Origin: Antedon mediterranea
Lineage: Eukaryota; Echinodermata; Crinoidea; Comatulida; Antedonidae
Length of the DNA stretch: 64,000 nt
Direction: 5' to 3'
Assembly (NCBI RefSeq): GCF_964355755.1
Contig: NC_092672.1
Coordinates: forward strand, 18,658,501 to 18,722,500
The notes beneath the pieces are model-generated. The model was not told the origin of the DNA. It saw only the letters and a list, made by a program, of their open reading frames with translations, and searched no databases. The translations under genes were made by a program, and so were the position numbers. This document shows positions 42,695-59,919 of this stretch, one piece after another. Numbering within the stretch: the stretch's first letter is position 1; each line of letters begins with the position of its first letter.

Positions 42695-44098
42695 TTATCT
42701 CATTGTATTAGATCTACTTGTGGCAGCATATATGTAATGATTACTTTGTATTTCTAAATACATGGCATCAACCTCTTTATCATCTGGTGCCTGAGCAGCA
42801 AATGATCTTCTCCAGATTGTGGCATCTCTTGTGCGAGGTAAAGGTAACGTCATTCTATCGCGAGGTTCAAAGTACACTTCAGGTTGATGTACTATTGTTT
42901 TAGTTTGATTTGTTGTGATGTTTTTTGAACATAAACAATAATAATAAACTGGAATCATAACGATGATTACTAATAAGACTACACAAGCAACAATGATAAT
43001 GACGATGACGTCAGTAGATAATCCTGAAGATGTTTCTTTATTTAATGTGTCAATTCCACGTGATTTATTATTTTCATTATCGTCAATAATTACAGAATCT
43101 TTAGCTAATGAAACTGTAACATCGTTTTGTGTATCAGATTGTATCGTTAACGTAACACTTGTTGATGAACTTCCAATTCGATTTTCAGCTGTGCACGTGA
43201 TCACAGTTCCATCCTGTTTCATTGTAGGATTATACAACATTAATATGTGTCCAGTATTATCAATGTTGTATTCTTTGTTGTCGAGTGGGGGAAGAGTTAA
43301 CCACGTATAACGAGTAACTGCAGGATTAGCGGTAGTGTCACAAATAAAGAAAGCTTGCTTACCGGCAGATATCAAACCTGTTTGAGGAATGCTAACTCTT
43401 GGCTTGTAATATATTGTCAGTGGTTGCGTTGTACAATTTCTACTAAGATCAGGAATTTGTACATTTGTCATTGAACACACAGCTTTATTTCCATTTAAAT
43501 CAGGATTAGCAATTAATCTCTTTTGTAATCTTGCAGTTTCTCCATCAATTATTTCAACAACATGTGTAGCGCCATCATTCCATCGTAATGTAACTGGCGG
43601 TTCTGTATACTCAGAAGCGCAGAAAAGCATGACGTCATCACCTTCTGTGTAAACATCCTTAGATGACGTACATAATGGATATTTCTCATGAGGAATTTGC
43701 AATACATTTAAAAATGCTTTATCTGATTCTAGTAAAAGACTATTATTTCCAAATACGTCACACTGATAAAATCCCCGATCGCTATTCAAAACGCTATAGA
43801 AAAAAATATTGTAAATTATCCGCTTAGGAGGCCTATTATTATCTTCATTTATTGTGACAATAAAGTTGTGTTGTATTTTCAAATCCTCTCGTACAATGTC
43901 ATCAGTGGCAATGTATTCTCCATCTTTCTTCCATTTAAGTTTGTACTGGCTTGTAAAGGTTGTATCAAATTCTACAATGCAAATTAACGAAGCTGCTCTT
44001 TTTGCTCTTACTGTTGAATTTGATGGATGTCCGTCAAATAGAAGACTATTCGTCAAATTCACAAAAAGGACAATAGTAGTACACAATATTGATAACAT
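42695..44098 (-). CDS. Three-Ig type I receptor, array gene 1 (Ig1 class II), 467 aa
   Basis: Intronless. Signal peptide about 1-18; Ig1 (C40, W56, YQC at 111-113); Ig2 (C160, W173, C208) with an extra pair C143/C222 that probably forms a second disulfide; Ig3 (C253, W266, C302); a polar stalk; TM about 364-386; an 80-residue cytoplasmic tail. The tail holds Y409 (YFEP), Y447 (YLEI) and Y455/Y457 (HYIYAAT). N-glycosylation sequons are present in Ig1, Ig2 and the stalk. Probably a cell-surface recognition receptor; the ligand is unknown. Ig1 (CIVEFDTTFTSQYKLKWKKD) resembles only array gene 7, but is a few residues longer (NNRPPKR insertion). It is the last gene of the array on this side. Confidence 0.9.
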   Translation of the reverse strand: MLSILCTTIVLFVNLTNSLLFDGHPSNSTVRAKRAASLICIVEFDTTFTSQYKLKWKKDGEYIATDDIVREDLKIQHNFIVTINEDNNRPPKRIIYNIFFYSVLNSDRGFYQCDVFGNNSLLLESDKAFLNVLQIPHEKYPLCTSSKDVYTEGDDVMLFCASEYTEPPVTLRWNDGATHVVEIIDGETARLQKRLIANPDLNGNKAVCSMTNVQIPDLSRNCTTQPLTIYYKPRVSIPQTGLISAGKQAFFICDTTANPAVTRYTWLTLPPLDNKEYNIDNTGHILMLYNPTMKQDGTVITCTAENRIGSSSTSVTLTIQSDTQNDVTVSLAKDSVIIDDNENNKSRGIDTLNKETSSGLSTDVIVIIIVACVVLLVIIVMIPVYYYCLCSKNITTNQTKTIVHQPEVYFEPRDRMTLPLPRTRDATIWRRSFAAQAPDDKEVDAMYLEIQSNHYIYAATSRSNTMR

Positions 44099-44241
44099 TT
44101 TGATTAATAAACTCGATTTTTTAAGTTACATTCTTCCAGATAAATTATTATTTACTACATTTCGAAAAAATATATTGTTCTCCAAAAGGAAAATTACTTT
44201 TTCAATAATGCAGATATTTAACGTTAATACATCAGTGGTAT

Positions 44242-44280
44242 ATGTCCAAACAAATTGATGGTTATGTTTCGCGTTTAAAG
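44242..44280 (-). promoter_or_regulatory. Shared upstream block, gene 1
   Basis: Plus-strand reading ATGTCC, then TTATGTTTCGCGTTT (44262-44276). It lies 145-180 bp before the ATG and is shared with the other array genes. Confidence 0.45.
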
Positions 44281-44364
44281 GAAACCTACAAAAACAAATT
44301 GTATAAGCCGAATTAAGCATTTATGTTTCATAATATATGAGATTGAAATGTATGCGAGAAAATG

Positions 44365-45759
44365 TTATCGCATTGTATTAGATCTACTTGTGGCAGCATA
44401 TATATAATGATTACTTTGTATTTCTAAATACATGGCATCAACCTCTTTATCATCTGGTGCCTGAGCAGCAAACGATCTTCTCCAGATTGTGGCATCTCTT
44501 GTGCGAGGTAAAGGTAACGTCATTCTATCGCGAGGTTCAAAGTACACTTCAGGTTGATGTACTATTGTTGTAGTTTGATTTGTTGTGATGTTTCTTGAAC
44601 ATAAACAATAATAATAAACTGGAATCATAACGATGATTACTAATAAAACTACACAGGCAACAATGATAATGACGATGACGTCAGTAGATAATCCCGAAGA
44701 TATTTCTTTACTTGCAGTTTTATTACCAAGTGATTTATTATTTTCATTATAACCAATAATTACAGAATCTTTAGCTGTTGAAACTGTAACATCTTTTTGT
44801 GTATCAGATTGTATCGATAACGTAACACTTGTTGATGAACTTCCAATTCGATTTTCAGCTGTGCACGTGATTACAGTTCCATCCTGTTTCATTGTGGGAT
44901 TATACAACATTAATATGTGTCCAGTATTATCAATGTTGTATTCAGTTTTGTTGAGTGGTGGAAGAGTTAACCATGTATAAATAGTAACTGCAGGATTAGC
45001 GGTAGTGTCACAAATGAAGAAAGCTTGCTTACCAGCAGATATCAAACCTGTTTGAGGAATGCTAACTCTTGGTTTGTAATATATTGTTAGTGGTTGCGTT
45101 GTGCAATTTCTATTAAGATCAGGAATGTGTTCATTTGTCATTGAACACACAGCTTTATATCTATTTAAATCAGGATTAGCAATTAACCTTTTTTGTAATC
45201 TTGCGGTTTCTCCATCAACTATTTCAACAACATGTGTAGCGCCATCATTCCATCGTAATGTTACTGGCGGTTCTGTATACTCAGAAACGCAGAAAAGCAT
45301 GACGTCATCACCTTCTGTGTAAACATCCTTAGATGCTGTACATAATGGATATTCATCGCCAGGAATTTGTATTACATCAAAAAATGCTTTATTTGACTCA
45401 AGTACAAGAGTGTTATTTTCAAATACGTCACATTGATAAAATCCACGATCGCTATTCCAAACACTATTGAACATAAGATTATACGTAATAGTCCCGGTGT
45501 TTCTACTCACATCAACAACAAAATGATTTGAATTTTCCAAATCTTCTCTTATTTTATCTTCAGTGGCAATATATCCATTGTCATTTTTCTTCCATCTTAT
45601 CTTGTATTGGTATTCAAGACTAAGTTGTGTTTTTAAAATACAAATTAACGAGCTAGTTTCTTTTACGTTAGATGTAGAGTTTCTGGGATGGTAATCGAAA
45701 GACAAACAGCGTGCAAGTTGAAACAATACTACTTCAAACAATACTACAACAATCTTCAT
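44365..45759 (-). CDS. Three-Ig type I receptor, array gene 2 (Ig1 class I), 464 aa
   Basis: Same layout as gene 1. Ig1 starts with the signal MKIVVVLFEVVLFQLARC and has CILKTQLSLEYQYKIRWKKN. This Ig1 is almost identical to genes 8 and 9 and clearly different from all others. From PLCTASKDVYTEGDDVM onward it matches the whole family. The stalk reads STAKDSVIIGYNENN, with SLGNKTASKEISSG as in gene 3, so even the stalk has a shared-allele pattern. The 468-bp sequence upstream is homologous to that upstream of genes 8 and 9. Confidence 0.9.
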   Translation of the reverse strand: MKIVVVLFEVVLFQLARCLSFDYHPRNSTSNVKETSSLICILKTQLSLEYQYKIRWKKNDNGYIATEDKIREDLENSNHFVVDVSRNTGTITYNLMFNSVWNSDRGFYQCDVFENNTLVLESNKAFFDVIQIPGDEYPLCTASKDVYTEGDDVMLFCVSEYTEPPVTLRWNDGATHVVEIVDGETARLQKRLIANPDLNRYKAVCSMTNEHIPDLNRNCTTQPLTIYYKPRVSIPQTGLISAGKQAFFICDTTANPAVTIYTWLTLPPLNKTEYNIDNTGHILMLYNPTMKQDGTVITCTAENRIGSSSTSVTLSIQSDTQKDVTVSTAKDSVIIGYNENNKSLGNKTASKEISSGLSTDVIVIIIVACVVLLVIIVMIPVYYYCLCSRNITTNQTTTIVHQPEVYFEPRDRMTLPLPRTRDATIWRRSFAAQAPDDKEVDAMYLEIQSNHYIYAATSRSNTMR

Positions 45760-45875
45760 TGTTTATGTTATTACCGTATTAGAAATGATGTTTTACACTG
45801 TGATGTCTCAAAACAATCTCTGATAATATTCCTAAAATGAACAGCAAACGACTGCGAATTTATAATTTTAGAGAG

Positions 45876-45922
45876 ACATGTCCAGACAAATATATGATTT
45901 TGGTACTCGTTTTGAAGAAACT
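45876..45922 (-). promoter_or_regulatory. Shared upstream block, gene 2 (diverged form)
   Basis: GTCCAGACAAATATATGATT then TTGGTACTCGTTTTGAAG. Aligns with the gene 1 block (GTCCAAACAAATTGATGG) but the CGCG core is changed to ACTCG. It lies about 115-165 bp before the ATG. Confidence 0.35.
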
Positions 45923-46227
45923 TATAAAATTAAAAAAAGTAAGAATATACATCAGTGTCACCTTTCATTAATCTTACTTATGTAAAAGTATGATAGACTT
46001 GCAAAATGATTTACGAGAGTTTTTACTTCAATGATTGCTGGAATATGTTACGTTATTGAATTAGGCATAACTCTTCGTAAATGATAGGAAAATATAAAAG
46101 GATATTATTTCTCATTATAATATTATCTACTTCTATAGGTAGTACCATATTAATTTATACATCAACATTGTGAAAGTTAAGGTTGTACTCACTGAAAAAG
46201 GTAATATATTATATTGAATGAGCATTA

Positions 46228-47619
46228 TCATCTCATTGTATTAGATCTACTTGTGGCAGCATAAATGTAATGATTACTTTGTATTTCTAAGTACATGGCA
46301 TCAACCTCTTTATCGTCTGGTGCCTGAGCAGCAAACGATCTTCTCCAGATTGTGGCATCTCTTGTGCGAGGTAAAGGTAACGTCATTCTATCGCGAGGTT
46401 CAAAGTACACTTCAGGTTGATGTACTATTGTTGTAGTTTGATTTGTTGTGATGTTTTTTGAACATAAACAATAATAATAAACTGGAATCATAACGATGAT
46501 TACTAATAAGACTACACAGGCAACAATGATAATGACGATGACGTCAGTAGATAATCCTGGAGATATTTCTTTACTTGCAGTTTTATTACTAAGTGATTTA
46601 TTATTTTCATTATAATCAATAATTACAGAATCTTTAGCTGTTGAAACTGTGACATCGTTTTGTGTATCAGATTGTATCGTTAACGTAACACTTGTTGATG
46701 AACTTCCAATTCGATTTTCAGCTGTGCACGTGATTACAGTTCCATCAAGTTTCATTGTTGGATTAGACAACATAAATATGTGTCCAGTATTATCAATGTT
46801 GTATTCAGTTTTGTCGAGTGGTGGAAGAGTTAACCATGTATAAATGGTAACTGTAGGATTAGCGGTAGTGTCACAAATAAAGAAACCTTGCTTACCAGCA
46901 GATATCAAACCTGTTTGAGGAATGCTAACTCTTGGTTTGTAATATATTGTCAGTGGTTGCGTTGTACAATTTCTATTAAGATCAGGAATGTGTTCATTTG
47001 TCATTGAACACACAGATTTATATCCATTTAAATCAGGATTAGCAATTAATCTCTTTTGTAATCTTGCACTTTCTCCATCAACTATTTCAACAACATGTGT
47101 AGCGCCATCATTCCATCGTAACGTTACCGGAGGTTCTGTATACTCAGAAACGCAGAAAAGCATGACGTCATCACCTTCTGTGTAAACGTCTTTAGATTCT
47201 GTACATAATGGATATTTATCATCAGGAATTTGTATTACCTCTAAAAATGCTTTATTTGACTCCAGTACAAGACTGCTATTTTCAAATACATCACACTGAT
47301 AAAATTCACGATCACTATTCCAAATACTTATGAATATCAGATCAAATTTAATTCTGTTATTGATTCTGTTAATAGTCACTACAAAATGGCGTTTATCGTC
47401 AATGTCTTCTCGTAAATTTCTGTTTGTAGCTATGTATTCCTTGTTTTTCTTCCATTTCAAATCATAATTGCTTTTATCAGAACCTTTAAGTTCAATAATA
47501 CAAACAAGCGAAACTGTCTCTTTTACATTAGCCGTGATGTTAAAAGGATGTTCATAAAACTGTAGACTATTAACTACATTAAAGAAGTAGCTGAAAATAA
47601 TAATAAAAATTCGTTTCAT
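46228..47619 (-). CDS. Three-Ig type I receptor, array gene 3 (Ig1 class III), 463 aa
   Basis: I chose the ATG at 47619, which starts a signal peptide (MKRIFIIIFSYFF) aligned with its paralogues. The frame stays open to an ATG at 47697, adding 26 poorly hydrophobic residues that no sibling has. Ig1 resembles gene 6 (NYDLKWKKN, RINNRIKFDLIFISIWNSDR). Ig2 carries private residues shared only with gene 7: CTESKDVY, GESARLQ and KSVCSM; Ig3 shares GKQGFFIC with it. A conversion event with gene 7 is likely. TM and tail match the family. Confidence 0.9.
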   Translation of the reverse strand: MKRIFIIIFSYFFNVVNSLQFYEHPFNITANVKETVSLVCIIELKGSDKSNYDLKWKKNKEYIATNRNLREDIDDKRHFVVTINRINNRIKFDLIFISIWNSDREFYQCDVFENSSLVLESNKAFLEVIQIPDDKYPLCTESKDVYTEGDDVMLFCVSEYTEPPVTLRWNDGATHVVEIVDGESARLQKRLIANPDLNGYKSVCSMTNEHIPDLNRNCTTQPLTIYYKPRVSIPQTGLISAGKQGFFICDTTANPTVTIYTWLTLPPLDKTEYNIDNTGHIFMLSNPTMKLDGTVITCTAENRIGSSSTSVTLTIQSDTQNDVTVSTAKDSVIIDYNENNKSLSNKTASKEISPGLSTDVIVIIIVACVVLLVIIVMIPVYYYCLCSKNITTNQTTTIVHQPEVYFEPRDRMTLPLPRTRDATIWRRSFAAQAPDDKEVDAMYLEIQSNHYIYAATSRSNTMR

Positions 47620-47775
47620 TCTGGCTGAACTGGCAATTTGAAATGTTAAAAATCTTCTTGAATAAACACCTTCCAGCACATAACGTATTAAAGACAAACG
47701 CTTCTTTAATGACTACCTTCAATGAAAAAAATATTCAACAAGCTATACGTACTTGACTCCATTACACAGCTTTCC

Positions 47776-47822
47776 AAAATGTCCTATAAAATTCAATTTT
47801 ATGTTTCGCGTTTTGACAAAAC
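47776..47822 (-). promoter_or_regulatory. Shared upstream block, gene 3
   Basis: ATGTCC, then TTTATGTTTCGCGTTTT and GACAAAAC. It lies about 160-205 bp before the preferred ATG (47619). Confidence 0.45.
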
Positions 47823-47903
47823 CGTTTATTTCAGAATTCAAAGATCATTAGAAAGTGTTATTTGTTTAAGAATATTAAAATATCACAATTCCTCTTGAAC
47901 GTT

Positions 47904-49274
47904 CTATCTCATTGTGTTAGATCTACTGGTGGCAGCATAAATGTAGTGATTACTTTGTATTTCCAAGTACATTGCATCAACCTCTTTATCATCTGGTGCT
48001 TGAGCAGCAAATGATCTTCTCCAGATTGTGGCATCTCTTGTGCGAGGTAAAGGTAACGTCATTCTATCGCGAGGTTCAAAGTACACTTCAGGTTGATGTA
48101 CTATTGTTGTAGTTTGATTTGTTGTGATGTTTCTTGAACATAAACAATAATAATAAACTGGAATCATAACGATGATTACTAATAAAACTACACAAGCAAC
48201 AATGATAATGACGATGACGTCAGTAGATAATCCTGACGACGTTTCTTTATTTACAGTGTTATTCCCACGTGATTTATTGTTTGTATTATAATCAATAATT
48301 ACAGAATCTTGAGCTGATGTAACTGTATCAGATTGTATCGTTAACGTAACACTCTTTGATGAAGTTCCAATTCGATTTTCAGCTGTGCACGTGATTACAG
48401 TTCCATCCTGTTTCATTGTAGGATTATACAACATAAATATATGTCCAGTATTATCAATGTTGTATTCAGTTTTGTCGAGTGGTGGAAGAGTTAACCATGT
48501 ATAAATAGTAACTGCAGGATTAGCGGTAGTGTCACAAATAAAGAAAGCTTGCTTACCGGCAGATATCAAACCTGTTTGAGGAATGCTAACTCTTGGTTTG
48601 TAATATATTGTCAGTGGTTGCGTTGTGCAATTTCTATTAAGATCAGAAATTTGTACATTTGTCATTGAACATACATCTTTATATCCATTTAAATCAGGAT
48701 TAGCAATTAATCTCTTTTGTAATCTTGCAGTTTCTCCATCAACTATTTCAACAACATGTGTAGCGCCATCATTCCATCGTAATGTTACTGGCGGTTCTGT
48801 ATACTCAGAAACGCAGAAAAGCATGACGTCATCACCTTCTGTGTAAACATCATTCGATGCTGTACATAATGGATATTTATCATCAGGAATTTGTATTACA
48901 TCCAAAAATGCTTTATTTGACTCAAGTACAACGACGTTACTTTCAAATATGTCGCATTGGTAAATTCCACGATCACTGTTCCATACACTAATGAACACAA
49001 GGTTGAAAGTTATTTCCAAAATGCTTCTACTTACAGTGACAATAAAATGACTGGTATCTACTAGGTCATCTCGAATGTCCCCATTAGTGGCTATATATTC
49101 TTCGTCTTTCTTCCATTTTATATCATATTGTCTTTTATTGTTTGTCTCATATTCAGCAATACAAGTTAGCGAAACTGTTCCCATTGCTTCAATTGTTACA
49201 TTCAATGGTTGTTTATCAAATACAAGAGAATTTGAAGAACGAAGCAAAACTGTAATTATCATTAACAATAGCAT
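47904..49274 (-). CDS. Three-Ig type I receptor, array gene 4 (Ig1 class IV), 456 aa
   Basis: Family layout. Ig1 (CIAEYETNNKRQYDIKWKKD) pairs with gene 10. The stalk after Ig3 is shortened (IQSDTVTSAQDSVII, lacking about four residues present in most siblings), and Ig3 has IGTSSKSVTL; both features are shared only with gene 10. Ig2 reads KDVCSMTNVQISDLNRNC. TM and tail are standard. Shortest member of the array. Confidence 0.9.
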   Translation of the reverse strand: MLLLMIITVLLRSSNSLVFDKQPLNVTIEAMGTVSLTCIAEYETNNKRQYDIKWKKDEEYIATNGDIRDDLVDTSHFIVTVSRSILEITFNLVFISVWNSDRGIYQCDIFESNVVVLESNKAFLDVIQIPDDKYPLCTASNDVYTEGDDVMLFCVSEYTEPPVTLRWNDGATHVVEIVDGETARLQKRLIANPDLNGYKDVCSMTNVQISDLNRNCTTQPLTIYYKPRVSIPQTGLISAGKQAFFICDTTANPAVTIYTWLTLPPLDKTEYNIDNTGHIFMLYNPTMKQDGTVITCTAENRIGTSSKSVTLTIQSDTVTSAQDSVIIDYNTNNKSRGNNTVNKETSSGLSTDVIVIIIVACVVLLVIIVMIPVYYYCLCSRNITTNQTTTIVHQPEVYFEPRDRMTLPLPRTRDATIWRRSFAAQAPDDKEVDAMYLEIQSNHYIYAATSRSNTMR

Positions 49275-49442
49275 CTTGACTACCTTAGTCTATACAATCA
49301 ATGTAAACTATTATATAATGAATGCATTATTACAGGTGTAATATATTGCAATATAGTATAGCCATCGAAGTAGACATTTTCTTGCCGGGTTTGAAAACAC
49401 ATTGGCACAGCAATTACAATAGCTCTATGTTATGCTAGATTA

Positions 49443-49481
49443 ATGTCCATTTAAAATAAAAATTGTGTTTAACGTTTTACA
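49443..49481 (-). promoter_or_regulatory. Shared upstream block, gene 4
   Basis: ATGTCC, then ATTGTGTTTAACGTTTT. It lies about 170-205 bp before the ATG. Confidence 0.4.
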
Positions 49482-49535
49482 AAAATGGTATTTATCAAAA
49501 GAAATAGCATACCAATTTAAATTCATAATAACGTA

Positions 49536-50930
49536 TTATCTCATTGTATTAGATCTACTTGTGGCAGCATATATGTAATGATTACTCTGTATTTCTAAAT
49601 ACATGGCATCAACCTCTCTATCGTCTGGTGCCTGAGCAGCAAACGATCTTCTCCAGATTGTGGCATCTCTTGTGCGAGGTAAAGGTAACGTCATTCTGTC
49701 GCGAGGTTCAAAGTACACTTCAGGTTGATGTACTATTGTTTTTGTTTGATTTCTTGTGATGTTTCTTGAACATAAACAATAATAATAAACTGGAATCATA
49801 ACGATGATTACTAATGAAACTACACAAGCAACAATGATAATGACGATGACGTCAGTAGATAATCCTGTAGATGTTTCTTTATTTACAGTGTTATTTCCAC
49901 GTGATTTATTATTTCCATTATAATCAATAATTACAGAATCTTGAGCTGATGTAACTGTAACATCATTTTGTGTATCAGATTGTATCGTTAACGTAACACT
50001 CGTTGATGAACTTCCAATTTGATTTTCAGCTGTGCACGTGATTACAATTCCATCATGTTTCATTGTGGGATTATACAACATTAATATGTGTCCAGTATTA
50101 TCAATGTTGTATTCTTTGTTGTCGAATGGTGGAAGAGTTAACCATGTATAACGAGTAACTGCAGGATTAGCGGTAGTGTCACAAATGAAGAAAGCTTGCT
50201 TACCAGCGGATATCAAACCTGTTTGAGGAGGAATGCTAACTCTTGGTTTGTAATATATTGTCAGTGGTTGCGTTGTACAATTTCTATTAAGATCAGGAAT
50301 GTGTTCATTTGTCATTGAACACACAGCTTTATATCCATTTAAATCAGGATTAGCAATTAACCTCTTTTGTAATCTTGCAGTTTCTCCATCAACTATTTCA
50401 ACAACATGTGTAGCGCCATCATTCCAACGTAACGTTACTGGAGGTTCTGTATACTCAGAAGCGCAGAAAAGCATGACGTCATCACCTTCTGTGTAAACAT
50501 CCTTAGATGCAGTACATAATGGGTATTTATCTCCCGGAATTTGTATTACATCAAGAAATGCTTTATTTGACTCCAGTACAAGTATATCCTTTTCAACAAC
50601 ATCACATTGATAAAATGCTCGATCACTGTTCCTTATCCTTATAAAGACAAGATTAAAATTAATACGGACATCGGTCTTGCTATAGGTTACAACAAAATGG
50701 CTTGTATCTCTAATGTCCTCTCGTATGTTGCCATTTGTAGCAATATATTTTTCGTTTTTCTTCCACTTCATCTCATATTCATGTATGCCCAATGAGTGTA
50801 GTTCTACGCTGCAAATCAACGAAACTGTTCCCTCTGCTTTGACAGTAAAGTTGGATGGATGGTCATAGAACTGCAGACTATTTATTAGATAAAATAGATA
50901 GCTAAATATAGTGATAGCAAATAATTTCAT
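49536..50930 (-). CDS. Three-Ig type I receptor, array gene 5 (Ig1 class V), 464 aa
   Basis: Family layout, with the only class V Ig1 in the window (CSVELHSLGIHEYEMKWKKN; IRIRNSDRAFYQCDVVEKD). Ig3 starts SIPPQTGL, with a one-residue Pro insertion shared only with the adjacent gene 6, and has AENQIG. TM shows one change (CVVSLVIIV), and the tail reads APDDREVDAMYLEI with Arg for Lys. The juxtamembrane stretch is ITRNQTKT. Confidence 0.9.
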   Translation of the reverse strand: MKLFAITIFSYLFYLINSLQFYDHPSNFTVKAEGTVSLICSVELHSLGIHEYEMKWKKNEKYIATNGNIREDIRDTSHFVVTYSKTDVRINFNLVFIRIRNSDRAFYQCDVVEKDILVLESNKAFLDVIQIPGDKYPLCTASKDVYTEGDDVMLFCASEYTEPPVTLRWNDGATHVVEIVDGETARLQKRLIANPDLNGYKAVCSMTNEHIPDLNRNCTTQPLTIYYKPRVSIPPQTGLISAGKQAFFICDTTANPAVTRYTWLTLPPFDNKEYNIDNTGHILMLYNPTMKHDGIVITCTAENQIGSSSTSVTLTIQSDTQNDVTVTSAQDSVIIDYNGNNKSRGNNTVNKETSTGLSTDVIVIIIVACVVSLVIIVMIPVYYYCLCSRNITRNQTKTIVHQPEVYFEPRDRMTLPLPRTRDATIWRRSFAAQAPDDREVDAMYLEIQSNHYIYAATSRSNTMR

Positions 50931-51084
50931 CTTTAATAAAACTGGTCAACTTGATCGTGATATTCGTCTTCAATAATCATATCTCAGGAAGTAATACTGT
51001 TTAAGAAAATGTCCAACTACCTACATCATTTTTAGCTGATAGAGAAATCATATTATTGACAAAACACATCTACAGTATTCTATC

Positions 51085-51127
51085 TGTCCTATACAATTAA
51101 AAACTGTGTTTCCCGTTTCTTTAAAAC
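51085..51127 (-). promoter_or_regulatory. Shared upstream block, gene 5
   Basis: TGTCCT, then ACTGTGTTTCCCGTTTCT and TTAAAAC. It lies about 155-195 bp before the ATG. Confidence 0.4.
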
Positions 51128-51164
51128 ACTAATTTCAATAGAATTCCACAATTGCAATACCAAT

Positions 51165-52559
51165 CTATCTCATTGTATTAGATCTACTTGTGGCAGCATA
51201 TATGTAGTGATTGCTTTGTATTTCCAAGTACATTGCATCAACCTCTTTATCATCTGGTGCCTGAGCAGCAAATGATCTTCTCCAGATTGTGGCATCTCTT
51301 GTGCGAGGTAAAGGTAACGTCATTCTATCGCGAGGTTCAAAGTACACTTCAGGTTGATGTACTATTGTTGTAGTTTGATTTGTTGTGATGTTTCTTGAAC
51401 ATAAACAATAATAATAAACTGGAATCATAACGATGATTACTAATAAAACTACACAAGCAACAATGATAATGACGATGACGTCAGTAGATAATCCTGACGA
51501 CGTTTCTTTACTTATAGTGTTATTCCCACGTGATTTATTGTTTTTATTATAATCAATAATTACAGTATTTTGAACTGATTTAACTGTGACATCGTTTTGT
51601 GTATCAGATTGTATCGTTAACGTAAAACTTGTTGATGAACTTCCAATTTGATTTTCAGCTGTGCACGTGATTACAGTTCCATCCTGTTTCATTGTGGGAT
51701 TATATAACATTAATATATGTCCAGTATTATCAATGTTGTATTCAATATTGTCGAGTGGTGGAAGAGTTAACCATGTATAACGAGTAACTGCAGGATTAGC
51801 GGTAGTGTCACAAATAAAGAAAGCTTGCTTACCGGCAGATATCAAACCTGTTTGAGGAGGAATGCTAACTCTTGGTTTGTAATATATTGTCAGTGGTTGC
51901 GTTGTACAATTTCTATTAAGATCAGGAATGTGTTCATTTGTCATTGAACACATAGCTTTATATCCATTTAAATCAGGATTAGCAATTAACCTCTTTTGTA
52001 ATCTTGCAGTTTCTCCATGAACTATTTCAACAACATGTGTAGCGCCATCATTCCATCGTAATGTTACTGGTGGTTCTGTATACTCAGAAGCGCAGAAAAG
52101 CATGACGTCATCACCTTCTGTGTAAACATCCTGAGATGCTGTACATAATGGGTATTTACCTCCAGGAATTTGTATTACATCAAAAAATGCTTTATTTGAC
52201 TCCAGTACAAGAGTATTTTTTCCAAATACGTCACATTGATACAATCCACGATCACTATTCCAAATACTTATGAACATAAGAATAAATTTAATTTGGTTAT
52301 TTATTCTCCGCATAGTCACTACAAAATGACTCTTATCGTTAATATCTTCTCGTACATGTCCGTCTGTAGCTATGTATTCCTCATTTTTCTTCCATTTCAA
52401 CTCATAATTTCCTTTATCAAAATCTTTTAATTTTAAAATACAATCAAGCGAAGCTGTTTCTTTTACATTAACAGTGTTGTTAAATGGATGTTTATCAAAC
52501 CGCAGACTACAAATGAGACAGAATAAATAACAAAATACAGTAATAGAAAATAGTTTCAT
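51165..52559 (-). CDS. Three-Ig type I receptor, array gene 6 (Ig1 class III), 464 aa
   Basis: Family layout. Ig1 is of the gene 3 type (NYELKWKKN, MRRINNQIKFILMFISIWNSDR). Ig3 carries the Pro insertion SIPPQTGL seen next door in gene 5. Ig2 has VEIVHGETARL and KAMCSMTN. The stalk is the most diverged (VKSVQNTVIIDYNKNN). TM and tail are unchanged. Confidence 0.9.
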   Translation of the reverse strand: MKLFSITVFCYLFCLICSLRFDKHPFNNTVNVKETASLDCILKLKDFDKGNYELKWKKNEEYIATDGHVREDINDKSHFVVTMRRINNQIKFILMFISIWNSDRGLYQCDVFGKNTLVLESNKAFFDVIQIPGGKYPLCTASQDVYTEGDDVMLFCASEYTEPPVTLRWNDGATHVVEIVHGETARLQKRLIANPDLNGYKAMCSMTNEHIPDLNRNCTTQPLTIYYKPRVSIPPQTGLISAGKQAFFICDTTANPAVTRYTWLTLPPLDNIEYNIDNTGHILMLYNPTMKQDGTVITCTAENQIGSSSTSFTLTIQSDTQNDVTVKSVQNTVIIDYNKNNKSRGNNTISKETSSGLSTDVIVIIIVACVVLLVIIVMIPVYYYCLCSRNITTNQTTTIVHQPEVYFEPRDRMTLPLPRTRDATIWRRSFAAQAPDDKEVDAMYLEIQSNHYIYAATSRSNTMR

Positions 52560-52701
52560 CTTGGCTGAATTTGAAATACCTTTTTAAATAAACATTTTGA
52601 AGCACATAAAGGCAACTAGTTCCTTAGCAATTACCTTCCTCATTGTCACATAATAAAGCAAGAACATTTACTTATCGACGCTACTTTACACAGCTATTCC
52701 T

Positions 52702-52746
52702 AATGTCCTACTTAATACGATATTATGTTTAGCGTTTTGCTAAAAC
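52702..52746 (-). promoter_or_regulatory. Shared upstream block, gene 6
   Basis: ATGTCC, then TTATGTTTAGCGTTTT and GCTAAAAC. It lies about 145-187 bp before the ATG. Confidence 0.45.
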
Positions 52747-52824
52747 AAGTTTATTTCAGAATACACACACCAAATAAAAAAAACACTATTGACAACCATT
52801 TTAAGCTAATACCATAAAAACGTT

Positions 52825-54216
52825 CTATCTCATTGTATTACATCTACTTGTGGCAGCATAGATGTAATGATTACTTTGTATTTCCAAGTACATGGCATCA
52901 ACCTCTTTATCATCTGGTGCTTGAGCAGCAAATGATCTTCTCCAGATTGTGGCATCTCTTGTGCGAGGTAAAGGTAACGTCATTCTATCGCGAGGTTCAA
53001 AGTACACTTCAGGTTGATGTACTATTGTTGTAGTTTGATTTGTTGTGATGTTTTTTGAACATAAACAATAATAATAAACTGGAATCATAACGATGATTAC
53101 TAATAAAACTACACAAGCAACAATGATAATGACGATGACGTCAGTAGATAATCCTGTAGATGTTTCTTTATTGACAGTGTTATTTCCACGTGATTGATTA
53201 TTTTCATTATAATTAATAATTACAGAATCTTGAGCTGATGTAACTCTAACATCTTTTTGTGTATCAGATTGTATCGATAACGTAACACTCGTTGATGAAC
53301 TTCCAATTCGATTTTCAGCTGTGCACGTGACCACAGTTCCATCCTGTTTCATTGTGGGATTAGACAACATAAATATGTGTCCAGTATTATCAATGTTGTA
53401 TTCAGTTTTGTCGAGTGGGGGAAGAGTTAACCATGTGTAACGAGTAACTGCCGGATTAGCGGTAGTCTCACAAATAAAGAAACCTTGCTTACCAGCAGAT
53501 ATCAAACCTGTTTGACGAATGCTAACTCTTGGTTTGTAATATATTGTCAGTGGTTGCGTTGTACAATTTCTATTAAGATCAGGAATGTGTTCATTTGTCA
53601 TTGAACACACAGATTTATATCCATTTAAATCAGGATCAGCAATTAATCTCTTTTGTAATCTTGCACTTTCTCCATCAACTATTTCAACAACATGTGTAGC
53701 GCCATCATTCCATCGTAACGTTACCGGAGGTTCTGTATACTCAGAAACGCAGAAAAGCATTACGTCATCACCTTCTGTGTAAACGTCTTTAGATTCTGTA
53801 CATAATGGATATTTATCATCAGGAATTTGTATTACATCTAAAAATGCTTTATTTGACTCTAGTACAAGACTGCTATTTTCAAATACATCACATTGGTAAA
53901 ATCCCCGATCGCTATTCAAAACCCCATAGAAAAAAATATTGTAAATAATTTGCATATTATCTTCATTTATTGTGACAATAAAGTTTTGCGATGTTTTCAA
54001 ATCCTCTCGTAAAACGTCGTTAATGGCAATGTATTCTCCATCTTTCTTCCATTTAAGTTTGTACTGGCTTGTAATCGTTGTATCAAATTCTACAATGCAA
54101 ATTAACAAAACTGCTCCTTTAGCTTTTACAGTTGAATTTGATGGTTGTTTATCAAACACAAGACAATTCGTAATGTTAAAAAACAGAAAAATATAACTAA
54201 GCACTGTTAATAGCAT
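52825..54216 (-). CDS. Three-Ig type I receptor, array gene 7, mosaic (class II / gene 3), 463 aa
   Basis: Family layout but visibly mosaic. The N-terminal Ig1 is class II like gene 1 (FDTTITSQYKLKWKKD, VLNSDRGFYQC). From the end of Ig1 onward (FENSSLVLESNKAF) through Ig2 it is nearly identical to gene 3, including CTESKDVY, GESARLQ, KSVCSM and KQGFFIC. The switch falls between about 53884 and 53897 in the DNA. Private changes include SIRQTGL, FICETTANP and IADPDL. The tail ends SRCNTMR, as in gene 8. Confidence 0.9.
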   Translation of the reverse strand: MLLTVLSYIFLFFNITNCLVFDKQPSNSTVKAKGAVLLICIVEFDTTITSQYKLKWKKDGEYIAINDVLREDLKTSQNFIVTINEDNMQIIYNIFFYGVLNSDRGFYQCDVFENSSLVLESNKAFLDVIQIPDDKYPLCTESKDVYTEGDDVMLFCVSEYTEPPVTLRWNDGATHVVEIVDGESARLQKRLIADPDLNGYKSVCSMTNEHIPDLNRNCTTQPLTIYYKPRVSIRQTGLISAGKQGFFICETTANPAVTRYTWLTLPPLDKTEYNIDNTGHIFMLSNPTMKQDGTVVTCTAENRIGSSSTSVTLSIQSDTQKDVRVTSAQDSVIINYNENNQSRGNNTVNKETSTGLSTDVIVIIIVACVVLLVIIVMIPVYYYCLCSKNITTNQTTTIVHQPEVYFEPRDRMTLPLPRTRDATIWRRSFAAQAPDDKEVDAMYLEIQSNHYIYAATSRCNTMR

Positions 54217-54368
54217 CTTGATTAATATTCTTGATTTTTAAGATGGCTACAGTTCTCTAGATCAATAGTTACTTACTGTACTTCGAAAGTAGTAGTAGTA
54301 GTTTTCGCAAAGCAACGTTACAATGGAAACGACAATGAATATAGTTATTATATTCTTTATCAATGGGC

Positions 54369-54411
54369 AATGTCCAAATGAATTGGTGGTTGTGTTTCAC
54401 GTTCTCAAAAA
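54369..54411 (-). promoter_or_regulatory. Shared upstream block, gene 7
   Basis: ATGTCC, then TTGTGTTTCACGTTCT and CAAAAAAC. It lies about 153-195 bp before the ATG. Confidence 0.45.
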
Positions 54412-54494
54412 ACGTTACATAAACAGATTATATCACCAGAAATAAGTATTGCTGTTGACACATTATATGAGATAGAAATGTATGCGGGAAAGTG

Positions 54495-55889
54495 TTACCG
54501 CATTGTATTACATCTACTTGTGGCAGCATATATGTAATGATTACTTTGTATTTCCAAGTACATGGCATCGACCTCTTTATCATCTGGTGCCTGAGCAGCA
54601 AACGATCTTCTCCAGATTGTGGCATCTCTTGTGCGAGGTAACGGTAACGTCATTCTATCGCGAGGTTCAAAATACACTTCAGGTTGACGTACTATTGTTG
54701 TAGTTTGATTTGTTGTGATGTTTCTTGAACATAAACAATAATAATAAACTGGAATCATAACGATGATTACTAATAAAACTACACAAGCAACAATGATAAT
54801 GACGATGACGTCAGTAGATAATCCTGTAGATGTTTCTTTATTGACAGTGTTATTTCCACGTGATTGATTATTTTCATTATAATCAATAATTACAGAATCT
54901 TTAGCTGTTGAAACTGTGACATCATTTTGTGTATCAGATTGTATCGTTAACGTAACACTTGTTGATGAACTTCCAATTTGATTTTCAGCTGTGCACGTGA
55001 TTACAGTTCCATCCTGTTTCATTGTGGGATTATACAACATTAATATGTGTCCAGTATTATCAATGTTGTATTCAGTTTTGTCGAGTGGTGGAAGAGTTAA
55101 CCATGTATAAATAGTAACTGCAGGGTTAGCGGTAGTGTCACAAATGAAGAAAGCTTGCTTACCGGCAGATATCAAACCTGTTTGAGGAATGCTAACTCTT
55201 GGTTTGTAATATATTGTCAGTGGTTGCGTTGTACAATTTCTATTAAGATCAGGAATTTGTATATTTGTCATTGAACATACAACTTTATATCCAATTAATT
55301 CAGGATTAGCAATTAATCTCTTTTGTAATCTTGCAGTTTCTCCATCAACTATCTCAACAATATGTGTAGCGCCATCATTCCATCGTAATGTTACTGGCGG
55401 TTCTGTATACTCAGAAATACAGAAAAGCATGACGTCATCACCTTCTGTGTAAACATCCTGAGATGCTGTACATAATGGGTATTTATCTCCAGGAATTTGT
55501 ATTACATCAAAAAATGCTTTATTTGACTCCAGTACAAGAGTATTATTTTCAAATATTTCACATTGATAAAATCCACGATCGCTATTCCAAACACTATTGA
55601 ACATAAGATTATACGTAATAGTCCCGGTGTTTCTACTCACATCGACAAAAAAATGATTTAAATTTTTCAAATCTTCTCTTATTTTATCTTCAGTGGCAAT
55701 ATATCCATTGCCATTTTTCTTCCATCTTATCTTGTATTGGTATTCAAGACTAAGTTGTGTTTTTAAAATACAAATTAACGAGCTAGTTTCTTTTACGTTA
55801 GATGTAGAGTTTCTAGGATGGTAATCGAAAGACAAACAGCGTGCAAGTTGAAACAATACTACTTCAAACAATACTACAACAATCTTCAT
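54495..55889 (-). CDS. Three-Ig type I receptor, array gene 8 (Ig1 class I), 464 aa
   Basis: Family layout. Signal and Ig1 are nearly identical to genes 2 and 9. Ig1 ends YQCEIFENN rather than YQCDVFENN. Ig2 has CISEYTEP, THIVEIV and NPELIGYKVVCSMTNIQIPD, making it the most diverged Ig2 of the array. The tail has IVRQPEVYF (His to Arg) and ends SRCNTMR like gene 7. The stalk NENNQSRGNNTVNKE is shared with gene 7, suggesting exchange between these neighbours at their 3' ends. Confidence 0.9.
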   Translation of the reverse strand: MKIVVVLFEVVLFQLARCLSFDYHPRNSTSNVKETSSLICILKTQLSLEYQYKIRWKKNGNGYIATEDKIREDLKNLNHFFVDVSRNTGTITYNLMFNSVWNSDRGFYQCEIFENNTLVLESNKAFFDVIQIPGDKYPLCTASQDVYTEGDDVMLFCISEYTEPPVTLRWNDGATHIVEIVDGETARLQKRLIANPELIGYKVVCSMTNIQIPDLNRNCTTQPLTIYYKPRVSIPQTGLISAGKQAFFICDTTANPAVTIYTWLTLPPLDKTEYNIDNTGHILMLYNPTMKQDGTVITCTAENQIGSSSTSVTLTIQSDTQNDVTVSTAKDSVIIDYNENNQSRGNNTVNKETSTGLSTDVIVIIIVACVVLLVIIVMIPVYYYCLCSRNITTNQTTTIVRQPEVYFEPRDRMTLPLPRTRDATIWRRSFAAQAPDDKEVDAMYLEIQSNHYIYAATSRCNTMR

Positions 55890-56004
55890 TGTTTATGTTA
55901 TTATCGTATTAGAAATGATGTTTTACACTATGTTGTCTCGAAACAATCTCTGATAATATTCCTAAAATGAACAGCAAACGACTGCGAATTTATAATTTTA
56001 GAAA

Positions 56005-56046
56005 CATGTCCAGACAAATATATGATTTTGGTACTCGTTTTGAGGA
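56005..56046 (-). promoter_or_regulatory. Shared upstream block, gene 8 (diverged form)
   Basis: ATGTCCAGACAAATATATGA then TTTTGGTACTCGTTTTG. Same form as genes 2 and 9, about 116-157 bp before the ATG. Confidence 0.35.
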
Positions 56047-56337
56047 AACTATATAAGTAAGAATCTACATCAGTGTCACCTTTCATTAATCTTACTTATG
56101 TAAAAGTATGATAGACTTGCAAAATGATTTAAGAAACTTTTTACTTCACTGATTGCTGGAAAATGTTACGTTATTGAATTAGGCATAACTCATCGTAAAT
56201 GATAGGAAAATATAAAAGGATATTATTTCTCATTATAATATTATCTACTTCTATAGGTAGTACCATATTAATTTATACATCAACATTGTGAAAGTTAAGG
56301 TTGTACTCTCTGAAAAAGGTAATAGGAAAGAGGCTTA

Positions 56338-57732
56338 TTAGCTAATTGTATTAGATCTACTTGTGGCAGCATATATGTAATGATTACTCTGTATTTCCAA
56401 ATACATGGCATCAACCTCTTTATCATCTGGTGCCTGAGCAGCAAATGATCTTCTCCAGATTGTGGCATCTCTTGTGCGAGGTAAAGGTAACGTCATTCTA
56501 TCGCGAGGTTCAAAGTACACTTCAGGTTGATGTACTATTGTTGTAGTTTGATTTGTTGTGATATTTCTTGAACATAAACAATAATAATAAATTGGAATCA
56601 TAACGATGATTACTAATAAAACTACACAGGCAACAATGATAATGACGATGACGTCAGTAGATAATCCCGAAGATGTTTCTTTATTTAATGTGTCATTTCC
56701 ACGTGATTTATTATTTTCATTATGATCAATAATTACAGAATCTTTAGCTTTTGAAACTGTAACATCGTTTTGTGTATCAAATTGTATCATTAACGTAACA
56801 CTCGTTGATGAATTTCCAATTCGATTTACAGCTGTGCACGTGATTACAGTTCCATCATGTTTCATTGTTGGATTAGACAACATAAATATGTGTCCAGTAT
56901 TATCAATGTTGTATTCAGTTTTTTCGAGTGGTGGAAGAGTTAACCATGTATAAATAGTAACTGCAGGATTAGCGGTAGTGTCACAAATAAAGAAAGCTTG
57001 CTTACCGGCAGATATCAAACTTTTTTGAGGAATGCTAACTCTTGGTTTGTAATATATTGTCAGTGGTTGCGTTGTACAATTTCTATTAAGATCAGGAATG
57101 TGTTCATTTGTCATTGAACACACAGCTTTATATCCATTTAAATCAGGATTAGCGATTAACCTTTTTTGTAATCTTGCAGTTTCTCCATGAACTATTTCAA
57201 CAACATGTGTAGCGCCATCATTCCATCGTAATGTTACCGGAGGTTCTGTATACTCAGAAGCGCAGAAAAGCATGACGTCATCACCTTCTGTGTAAACATC
57301 CTGAGATGCTGTACATAATGGGTATTTATCTCCAGGAATTTGTATTACATCAAAAAATGCTTTATTTGACTTCAGTACAAGAATATCATTTTTAAATACG
57401 TCACATTGATAAAATCCACGATCGCTATTCCAAATACTTATGAATATCAGATTATACGTAATAGTCCCGATGTTTCTACTTACATCAACAAAAAAATGAT
57501 TTAAATTTTCCAAATCTTCTCTTATTTTATCTTCAGTGGCAATATATTCATTGTCATTTTTCTTCCATCTTATCTTGTATTGGTATTCAAGACTAGGTTG
57601 TGTTTTTAAAATACAAATTAACGAGCTAGTTTCTTTTACGTTAGATGTAGAGTTTCTTGGGTGGTAATCGAAAGACAAACAGCGTGCAAGTTGAAACAAT
57701 ACTACTTCGAACAATACTACAACAATCTTCAT
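56338..57732 (-). CDS. Three-Ig type I receptor, array gene 9 (Ig1 class I, mosaic), 464 aa
   Basis: Family layout. The first two thirds of Ig1 match genes 2 and 8, but the following stretch (LIFISIWNSDRGFYQC) is of class III type. The DNA at about 57428-57450 (CCAAATACTTATGAATATCA) equals gene 3 and not genes 2 and 8. Private changes: SIPQKSLISAGK in Ig3, AVNRIGNSSTS, MIPIYYY in the TM end, and a C-terminus SNTIS instead of SNTMR. The upstream 450 bp are homologous to those of genes 2 and 8. Confidence 0.9.
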   Translation of the reverse strand: MKIVVVLFEVVLFQLARCLSFDYHPRNSTSNVKETSSLICILKTQPSLEYQYKIRWKKNDNEYIATEDKIREDLENLNHFFVDVSRNIGTITYNLIFISIWNSDRGFYQCDVFKNDILVLKSNKAFFDVIQIPGDKYPLCTASQDVYTEGDDVMLFCASEYTEPPVTLRWNDGATHVVEIVHGETARLQKRLIANPDLNGYKAVCSMTNEHIPDLNRNCTTQPLTIYYKPRVSIPQKSLISAGKQAFFICDTTANPAVTIYTWLTLPPLEKTEYNIDNTGHIFMLSNPTMKHDGTVITCTAVNRIGNSSTSVTLMIQFDTQNDVTVSKAKDSVIIDHNENNKSRGNDTLNKETSSGLSTDVIVIIIVACVVLLVIIVMIPIYYYCLCSRNITTNQTTTIVHQPEVYFEPRDRMTLPLPRTRDATIWRRSFAAQAPDDKEVDAMYLEIQSNHYIYAATSRSNTIS

Positions 57733-57845
57733 TGTTTATGTTATTATCGTATTAGAAATGATGTTTTACACTATGATGTCTCGAAACAATCTCTGATAAT
57801 ATTCCTAAAATGAACAGCAAACGACTGCGAATTTATATTATTAGA

Positions 57846-57893
57846 GACATGTCCAGACAAATATATGATTTTGGTACTCGTTTTGAGGAAACT
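57846..57893 (-). promoter_or_regulatory. Shared upstream block, gene 9 (diverged form)
   Basis: ATGTCCAGACAAATATATGA then TTTTGGTACTCGTTTTG. It lies about 114-160 bp before the ATG. Confidence 0.35.
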
Positions 57894-58190
57894 TATAACA
57901 TTAATTAAAGTAAGAATCTACATCAGTGTCACCTTTCATTAATCTTACTTATGTAAAAGTATGATAGACTTGCAAAATGATTTAAGAGACTTTTTACTTC
58001 ACTGATTTCTTGAAAATGTTACGTCATTGAATTAGGCATAACTCTTCGTAAATGATAGGAAAATATAAAAGGATATTATTTTTCATTATAATATTATCTA
58101 CTTCTATAGGTAGTACCATATTAATTTATACATCAACATTGTGAAAGTTAAGGTTTTACTCTCTGAAAAAGGTAATATGAAAGAGGCTTA

Positions 58191-59567
58191 TTATCTCATT
58201 GTATTAGATCTACTTGTGGCAGCATATATGTAATGATTACTCTGTATTTCCAAATACATGGCATCAACCTCTTTATCGTCTGGTGCCTGAGCAGCAAATG
58301 ATCTTCTCCAGATTGTGGCATCTCTTGTGCGAGGTAAAGGTAACGTCATTCTATCGCGAGGTTCAAAGTACACTTCAGGTTGATGTACTATTGTTGTAGT
58401 TTGATTTGTTGTGATGTTTCTTGAACATAAACAATAATAATAAACTGGAATCATAACGATGATTACTAATAAAACTACACAAGCAACAATGATAATGACG
58501 ATGACGTCAGTAGATAATCCTGTAGATGTTTCTTTATTTACAGTGTTATTTCCACGTGATTTATTATTTCCATTATAATTAATAATTACAGTATCTTGAG
58601 CTGATGTAACTGTATCAGATTGTATCGTTAACGTAACATTCTTTGATGAAGTTCCAATTCGATTTTCAGCTGTGCACGTGATTACAGTTCCATCCTGTTT
58701 CATTGTGGGATTAGACAACATTAATATGTGTCCAGTATTATCAATGTTGTATTCAGTTTTGTCGAGTGGTGGAAGAGTTAACCATGTATAACGAGTAACT
58801 GCAGGATTAGCGGTAGTGTCACAAATAAAGAAAGCTTGCTTACCAGCGGATATCAAACCTGTTTGAGGAATGCAAACTCTTGGCTTGTAATATATTGTCA
58901 GTGGTTGCGTTATACAAGTTCTATTAAGATCAGGAATGTGTTCATTTGTCATTGAGCATACAGCTTTATATCCATTTAAATCAGGATTAGCAATTAACCT
59001 CTTTTGTAATCTTGCAGTTTCTCCATGAACTATTTCAACAACATGTGTAGCGCCATCATTCCATCGTAATGTTACTGCCGGTTCTGTATACTCAGAAACA
59101 CAGAAAAGCATGACGTCATCACCTTCTGTGTAAACATCCTTAGATGCAGTACATAATGGGTATTTATCTCCAGGAATTTGTATTACATCCAAAAATGCTT
59201 TTGTTGACGCCAGTACAATATTTTCAGTTTTGAAAACATCACATTGATAAAATCCACGATCAGTATTCCAAACACTTACAAAGACAAGATCGAATTTAAT
59301 TCGTGTACTACTTCTTCGTATTGTAACAATAAAATGACTTGAATCTTTTAGATTATCCACTATATTTCCATTAGTAGCAATATATTCTTCGTCTTTCTTC
59401 CACTTCATATCATATTGTATTTCGTCGTTTGTTTTATATTCTACAATACATGTAAGTGAAACTGCTCCTTCTGCTTGTACGGTTGAATTTAATGGATGCT
59501 CATCAAATAAAAGACAGCTTGTAAAACGAAATAAAAGAACATTAACAGCAAACACAAACCTTAACAT
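58191..59567 (-). CDS. Three-Ig type I receptor, array gene 10 (Ig1 class IV), 458 aa
   Basis: I chose the ATG at 59567 (MLRFVFAVNVLLFRF, a clean signal peptide). The frame extends to an ATG at 59618, adding 17 residues with no counterpart in the siblings. Ig1 (CIVEYKTNDEIQYDMKWKKD) and the short stalk (IQSDTVTSAQDTVII) pair it with gene 4. Odd points: RVCIPQTG puts an extra Cys at the start of Ig3, and NRTCITQP replaces NRNCTTQP, which swaps one N-glycosylation sequon for another. Ig2 has EYTEPAVTLRW. TM and tail are standard. Confidence 0.88.
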   Translation of the reverse strand: MLRFVFAVNVLLFRFTSCLLFDEHPLNSTVQAEGAVSLTCIVEYKTNDEIQYDMKWKKDEEYIATNGNIVDNLKDSSHFIVTIRRSSTRIKFDLVFVSVWNTDRGFYQCDVFKTENIVLASTKAFLDVIQIPGDKYPLCTASKDVYTEGDDVMLFCVSEYTEPAVTLRWNDGATHVVEIVHGETARLQKRLIANPDLNGYKAVCSMTNEHIPDLNRTCITQPLTIYYKPRVCIPQTGLISAGKQAFFICDTTANPAVTRYTWLTLPPLDKTEYNIDNTGHILMLSNPTMKQDGTVITCTAENRIGTSSKNVTLTIQSDTVTSAQDTVIINYNGNNKSRGNNTVNKETSTGLSTDVIVIIIVACVVLLVIIVMIPVYYYCLCSRNITTNQTTTIVHQPEVYFEPRDRMTLPLPRTRDATIWRRSFAAQAPDDKEVDAMYLEIQSNHYIYAATSRSNTMR

Positions 59568-59725
59568 TCTTGAATAATTTTGAAAATACGTATTATACAT
59601 AATTAGTATCATTCCCATATAAACGTATACTTTTGTAGTATATTGTCGAAACGTTTAAATATTGAGTAAATGTTTAATCATTACCATAGCACACGTATTA
59701 ATAATTGAACTTGTCAGAAACATGC

Positions 59726-59799: not shown

Positions 59800-59919
59800 A
59801 CTTAGTATATAGCAATGGTTACTCTGTATTTCCAAGTACATTGCATCAACCTCTTTATCATCTGGTGCTTGAGCAGCAAACGATCGTCTCCAGATTGCGG
59901 CATCTCTTGTGCGAGGTTT
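59800..59919 (-). pseudogene. Orphan tail fragment of an eleventh receptor gene
   Basis: On the minus strand this encodes only the cytoplasmic-tail segment (RTRDAAIWRRSFAAQAPDD, then EVDAMYLEIQSNH), after which the frame runs on into CYI and unrelated sequence. All extracellular and TM parts are missing. Homology stops abruptly at about 59919 with ordinary AT-rich DNA beyond. It marks the decayed 5'-side edge of the array. Confidence 0.8.

Follow-up and report, generated by a model that had tools for sequence, protein, structure and literature searches.

What are the ten intronless receptor genes that lie side by side on one strand of chromosome C3 of Antedon mediterranea, and what might they be for? 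The stretch that we analysed (the window; 64,000 nucleotides, C3:18658501-18722500) belongs to an assembly of 354 Mb that comprises 11 chromosomes plus small contigs, in which C3 starts with TTAGGG-type telomere repeats and the GC content is 33.7 ± 1.0% (19 sampled kilobases). Eleven is unlike the roughly 22 chromosomes known for echinoderms. Troponin matches mark the genome as bilaterian; searches for mitochondrial COX1, the annelid erythrocruorin linker and mollusc haemocyanin found nothing, the latter two having no positive control. A first-pass annotation had described ten uninterrupted ORFs on the same strand, separated by 180-470 bp, and we found all ten at the positions that it gave, on the minus strand (Table 1). 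They are indeed tightly packed, with 206-468 bp between neighbors when measured by the listed ORFs; if each gap is taken to end at the likely ATG, the range is 234-468 bp. Counted from the likely ATG, the proteins are 456-469 residues long, and they are 79-84% identical to one another. A chance origin of these ORFs is excluded by their length (~460 codons each at 33% GC), by this degree of protein identity and by the purifying selection found in every domain, described below.

Table 1. Receptor genes and parts in the window (window positions) and family members by genomic location (C3 positions in Mb)
Feature	Location	Strand	Description	Basis
W1	42695..44098	-	receptor gene, 467 aa, intronless	ORF list, Pfam, alignment
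W2	44365..45759	-	receptor gene, 464 aa; Ig1 type common to W8 and W9	ORF list, alignment
W3	46228..47619	-	receptor gene, 463 aa from likely ATG at 47619 (listed ORF start is TTG at 47697)	ORF list, alignment
W4	47904..49274	-	receptor gene, 456 aa	ORF list, alignment
W5	49536..50930	-	receptor gene, 464 aa; basis of structure prediction	ORF list, Pfam, AlphaFold2
W5 cytoplasmic tail	49539..49787	-	residues 382-464; boxes QPEVYFEPRD, WRRSFAAQAP, YLEI	sequence, motif counts
W5 transmembrane helix	49788..49853	-	residues 360-381	sequence, AlphaFold2
W5 Ig3	49983..50246	-	I-set, residues 229-316	Pfam, AlphaFold2
W5 Ig2	50247..50537	-	C2-set_2-type, residues 132-228	AlphaFold2, Pfam
W5 Ig1	50538..50873	-	V-type, residues 20-131; variable domain of window array	AlphaFold2, Pfam, pairwise dS
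W6	51165..52559	-	receptor gene, 464 aa	ORF list, alignment
W7	52825..54216	-	receptor gene, 463 aa; Ig1 type near that of W1	ORF list, alignment
W8	54495..55889	-	receptor gene, 464 aa	ORF list, alignment
W9	56338..57732	-	receptor gene, 464 aa	ORF list, alignment
W10	58191..59600	-	receptor gene, 469 aa from ATG at 59600 (475 aa from first ATG at 59618)	ORF list, alignment
Relic	59815..59916	-	34 receptor-tail codons upstream of W10 (first gene of array)	tblastn, 97% identity, E about 1e-16
Family genes	C3 near 3.3 Mb		3 genes	
Family genes	C3 11.7-11.85 Mb		4 single genes	
Array B	C3 11.87-11.90 Mb		18 genes in 30 kb	
Family genes	C3 12.6-12.8 Mb		5 genes	
Family gene	C3 14.7 Mb		1 gene	
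Family genes	C3 15.0-15.8 Mb		10 genes	
Family gene	C3 18.57 Mb		1 gene	
Array W (window)	C3 18.70 Mb		10 genes	
Array A1	C3 18.73-18.76 Mb		15 genes	
Array A2	C3 18.77-18.78 Mb		9 genes	
Array A3	C3 18.82-18.91 Mb		18 genes	

The order of parts in each window protein is signal peptide, V-type Ig, C2-type Ig, I-set Ig, transmembrane (TM) helix and a tail of about 83 residues; the signal peptide, three Ig domains, single TM helix and tail that had been claimed for each gene are also what Pfam and AlphaFold2 give. Across 66 family members Pfam identifies an I-set domain in all 66, a V-set domain in 58 and a C2-set_2 domain in 50; it yields Ig domains only, plus chance matches in the TM region, and no lectin-type domain. 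The AlphaFold2 model of W5 comprises a hydrophobic N-terminal helix, three Ig domains with pLDDT mostly 85-95, a TM helix at 359-390 and a disordered tail. Two extra cysteines of Ig2, C139 and C218, are kept in 82 of 83 members and probably pair within that domain.

The predicted ectodomain fold is nectin-like. Its closest solved counterparts are nectin-like 4 (Z 18.6 over 278 residues, rmsd 4.6), nectin-1, nectin-3 and necl-5/CD155, followed by DIPs, IgLONs and SIRP-alpha, and a sequence search of the PDB returned DIPs, CD155, contactin and Robo as first matches. With the nectins and nectin-like proteins (Necl-4, nectin-1/3, CD155), the best fold matches at Z 16-18.6, the receptors share a three-domain V-C2-C2/I ectodomain and a single TM helix, but sequence identity is 17-20%, the tail is unrelated and the genes form an intronless array in which a constant body is joined to a variable Ig1. 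Nectins end in a PDZ-binding motif, E/A-x-Y-V, that binds afadin or a scaffold, whereas the C-termini of the window genes (SNTMR, CNTMR, SNTIS) and of the other large arrays (NTLPY, NQNTL, DTEND) have no such end. DIPs and IgLONs likewise have three Ig domains and a similar fold, but these are known as small neuronal families, whereas the present set comprises roughly 100 TM receptors whose tail is conserved.

That tail carries the family signature. Aligned over 66 members, whose identity to W5 goes down to 22%, it reads QP[DE]VYFEP[KR]D ... W[KR]RS...QVP ... C-terminal Y, with variants in each box, and two tyrosine columns are invariant in 66/66. Of 83 members, 81 have the first box, 77 the W box and 35 the motif Y-x-[ED]-[IV]; the corresponding numbers for shuffled tails are 2.3, 3.0 and 7.7. 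The canonical ITIM, [SIVL]xYxx[ILV], is not enriched among these tails (20/83 versus 20.8 in shuffles); at the candidate site the window tails read AMYLEI. Vertebrate LILR/KIR arrays are tandem Ig receptors with tyrosine tails, multi-exon and ITIM-defined. The likeness to them is one of working, through tandem Ig receptors and tyrosine tails, but strict ITIMs are not enriched in the crinoid receptors.

The first-pass annotation had named no family with exactly this tail, and our searches agree: Pfam gives the tail no match, and we saw it in no other gene found. A genome-wide query with the TM helix and tail returned 90 candidates, all inside the receptor family and none intron-bearing. The exact DNA of EVYFEPRD in its window codon context occurs in the ten window genes only, a pattern that misses members with near variants (QD, KD or HI following) and is no count of the degenerate family box. 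We would place the receptors in no named family among those tested. In open-licence papers we found no match to a published intronless Ig receptor family; a prior description elsewhere is possible.

The tandem array of ten is real at this site, but it is not the whole set. Four protein searches of the whole genome, which agree on one set, place it within a family of at least 96 genes, 94 on C3 and 2 on C10 (84 read out as ORFs and 12 known from matches alone, with the best candidates scored). Arrays W, A1, A2, A3 and B each form a single clade in the ectodomain tree and in the tail tree. Every member is one frame without introns, even relatives with protein identity as low as about 22-33% and those on the second chromosome. 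Deep branches on both chromosomes share this state, which therefore arose before the window array did. The first-pass annotation had inferred retroposition followed by tandem amplification. ORFs, domains and array layout bear out the close packing of three-Ig receptor genes that lack introns, and their tandem amplification. Retroposition is possible, but the intronless state predates the array and no intron-bearing parent with the family tail is among the 90 candidates. A single ancient retroposition, then tandem spread, is plausible from the sequences, and intron loss is a possible alternative source. The tail relic next to W10 is what is left of one more receptor copy, now lost. Each unit has its own signal peptide, TM helix, tail and stop, unlike Dscam-type cassette genes, in which alternative exons are spliced to constant exons that they share. 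The mollusc VIgLs (FREP, CREP, GREP) are also expanded, variable invertebrate Ig proteins, but they join Ig to a lectin domain (PMC9334734), which window-type receptors do not have.

Omega was estimated from 24 independent close pairs of the family: signal peptide 0.85, Ig1 loops (BC, C'-D, DE, FG) 0.57, remainder of Ig1 0.40, Ig2 0.36, Ig3 0.33, stalk 0.46, TM helix 0.15 and tail 0.11. The loop labels are approximate, being taken from the predicted structure. Purifying selection in every domain means that the receptor proteins are functional. The loops are the least constrained portion of Ig1 (p = 0.035 versus the rest), and an omega of 0.57 across these pairs demonstrates no positive selection on them.

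The window genes are split between a variable end and a constant body. Across the signal peptide and the greater part of Ig1 the mean pairwise nucleotide identity is 0.55-0.66; over the remainder, Ig2 through tail, it is 0.90-0.98. Median dS is 1.04 in Ig1, 0.14 in Ig2, 0.10 in Ig3 plus stalk, 0.06 in the TM helix and 0.13 in the tail. The break lies elsewhere in other arrays: between Ig2 and Ig3 in A2, and only at the TM helix in A1 and, by sliding window, in A3. At 100 bp outside the coding sequence, mean flank identity is 0.37-0.45 in four arrays (0.33-0.38 in shuffles) and 0.53-0.61 in array B. Similarity in Ig1 is unrelated to similarity in the body across pairs (rho 0.07). The highest-entropy Ig1 positions are mostly in loops (DE 2.3 bits, BC 2.0, C'-D 1.4), and the most conserved strands are C, C', F and G2, at 0.3-0.6 bits. 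The 150-bp 5' flanks of W2, W8 and W9 (just above 45759, 55889 and 57732), genes with one common Ig1 type, are 94-97% identical, and flank and Ig1 together form a recently copied unit; the remaining window 5' flanks are near random.

This pattern fits concerted evolution by gene conversion that would have its centre in the inner 3' portion of the gene and fade both ways, rather than simple tandem duplication. Whole-unit crossing-over does not explain the split, as the flanks 100 bp out are near the shuffled level in four arrays. Each array carries its own tail (pS 0.54-0.78 between arrays versus 0.07-0.25 within), and this strong divergence between arrays with little within them excludes general codon constraint as the cause of the constant tail. 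A GENECONV-like pairwise run test gave a weak signal (6 of 45 pairs in the window array, and 20 of 91 and 13 of 36 pairs), which in the window array we attribute to the few variable sites left in the body. At least 86 more genes, the split between variable Ig1 and constant body, and the array-specific tails all go beyond the first-pass annotation. With several arrays of one family and differing boundaries, the receptors offer a clean natural experiment in domain-wise gene conversion.

We favor, with moderate confidence, the view that these genes are a lineage-specific family of single-pass nectin-like recognition receptors, likely in immune-type use against pathogens or in telling own from foreign tissue. 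The receptors would sit at the cell surface; from their architecture, their number, their linkage and the split between variable and constant parts we infer that Ig1 binds a ligand, that the tail signals through tyrosines and that the role is an immune one. The membrane-distal part (Ig1 in the window array) would contact ligand, with copies differing mostly in the BC, C'-D and DE loops, and Ig2-Ig3 would act as a spacer. Binding might lead to phosphorylation of the PEVYFEP tyrosine, the C-terminal Y-x-E-[IV] tyrosine or both, and the phosphorylated tail could then recruit SH2 proteins. Gene conversion would keep the signalling tail uniform inside each array, and arrays with different tails may link different recognition sets to different outputs. 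Against the recognition reading stand the lack of enrichment of strict ITIMs, a tip-loop omega below 1 and the use of the nectin-like fold by plain adhesion and neuronal proteins as well.

Other explanations were weighed for both the state of the genes and their use. That they are a decaying, unused array of retroposed copies is scarcely credible: the genes are intronless, a tail relic lies beside them and one A3 receptor has a premature TGA after Ig3 (C3:18877363), but this is the sole clear pseudogene among the genes read, at least 95 of 96 frames are open and omega is well below 1 in all domains. Pseudogenic frames had been named beforehand as the finding that would count against the annotation, and a single premature stop in 96 genes is what we observed. 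It is very improbable that the body diverges so little through recent duplication and strong codon-level selection, with no gene conversion. Constraint on the amino acids of the tail is strong (omega 0.11), as that account would have it, but within a single gene dS falls by a factor of about ten, the same tail approaches saturation when arrays are compared, and the flanks are nearly random.

As to use, the family might encode an adhesion or neuronal identity code like that of Drosophila Dpr/DIP, in which a large set of related Ig proteins marks cells for wiring. Sequence and fold searches both put structures of DIP Ig1-3 near the top, but about 100 tandem copies, array-wise homogenised tails and array-specific variants look more like recognition families, and Dpr and DIP genes are not known to form single-chromosome intronless arrays; we consider such a code quite unlikely. 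An allorecognition locus, functionally like the Hydractinia complex in which matching alleles on touching tissues permit fusion, is less far-fetched but still unlikely. Hydractinia has about 40 Alr or Alr-like genes, single-pass IgSF members with polymorphic ectodomains, in clusters on one chromosome (PMC11876637, PMC11067881), and in architecture and clustering the crinoid family follows this outline, with dozens of single-pass IgSF receptors, variable ectodomains and at least 94 of 96 genes on one chromosome. However, the CC'FG face of Ig1, used in nectin-type binding, is the conserved part here and the loops vary instead. Many Alr-like loci look pseudogenic (PMC11067881), whereas the genes described here are intronless, have one premature stop in 96 and belong to a bilaterian.

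Building on the recognition-receptor reading, we tentatively raise a bolder version, which we think possible but would not bet on: a chromosome-wide bilaterian complex of about 100 intronless nectin-like receptors for histocompatibility or individual-specific immunity, in which array-wise conversion would hold the TM helix and tail constant while the ectodomain diversifies, with an array-specific boundary. Invertebrate molecular recognition systems are known in few animals, and the receptor family is a ready candidate; a cell atlas study of Hydractinia lists no more than two invertebrates in which the genetics of allorecognition is well studied (PMC11876637).

Some clues bear on transcription. 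In array B (C3:11873632-11903677) the genes measured are 113-332 bp apart, and AATAAA/ATTAAA signals are few both there (1/13) and in the window (2/10). Short gaps and few poly-A signals would suit an operon or trans-splicing; against it, we saw no shared acceptor ahead of the ATGs, and a TATAAW lies upstream of about half of the window genes.

Elsewhere in the window, a minisatellite at 35285-35737 can be read as a repetitive ORF of VIESEHFRWSCCWLLSQNTLGG-like units, and a 630-residue ORF at 16778-18670 (plus strand) has neither a Pfam nor a PDB match. Positions 31001-34041 (plus strand) hold an ARMC5-like gene of at least two exons, with an armadillo part (PF24768, E 1.6e-62) and a BTB part.
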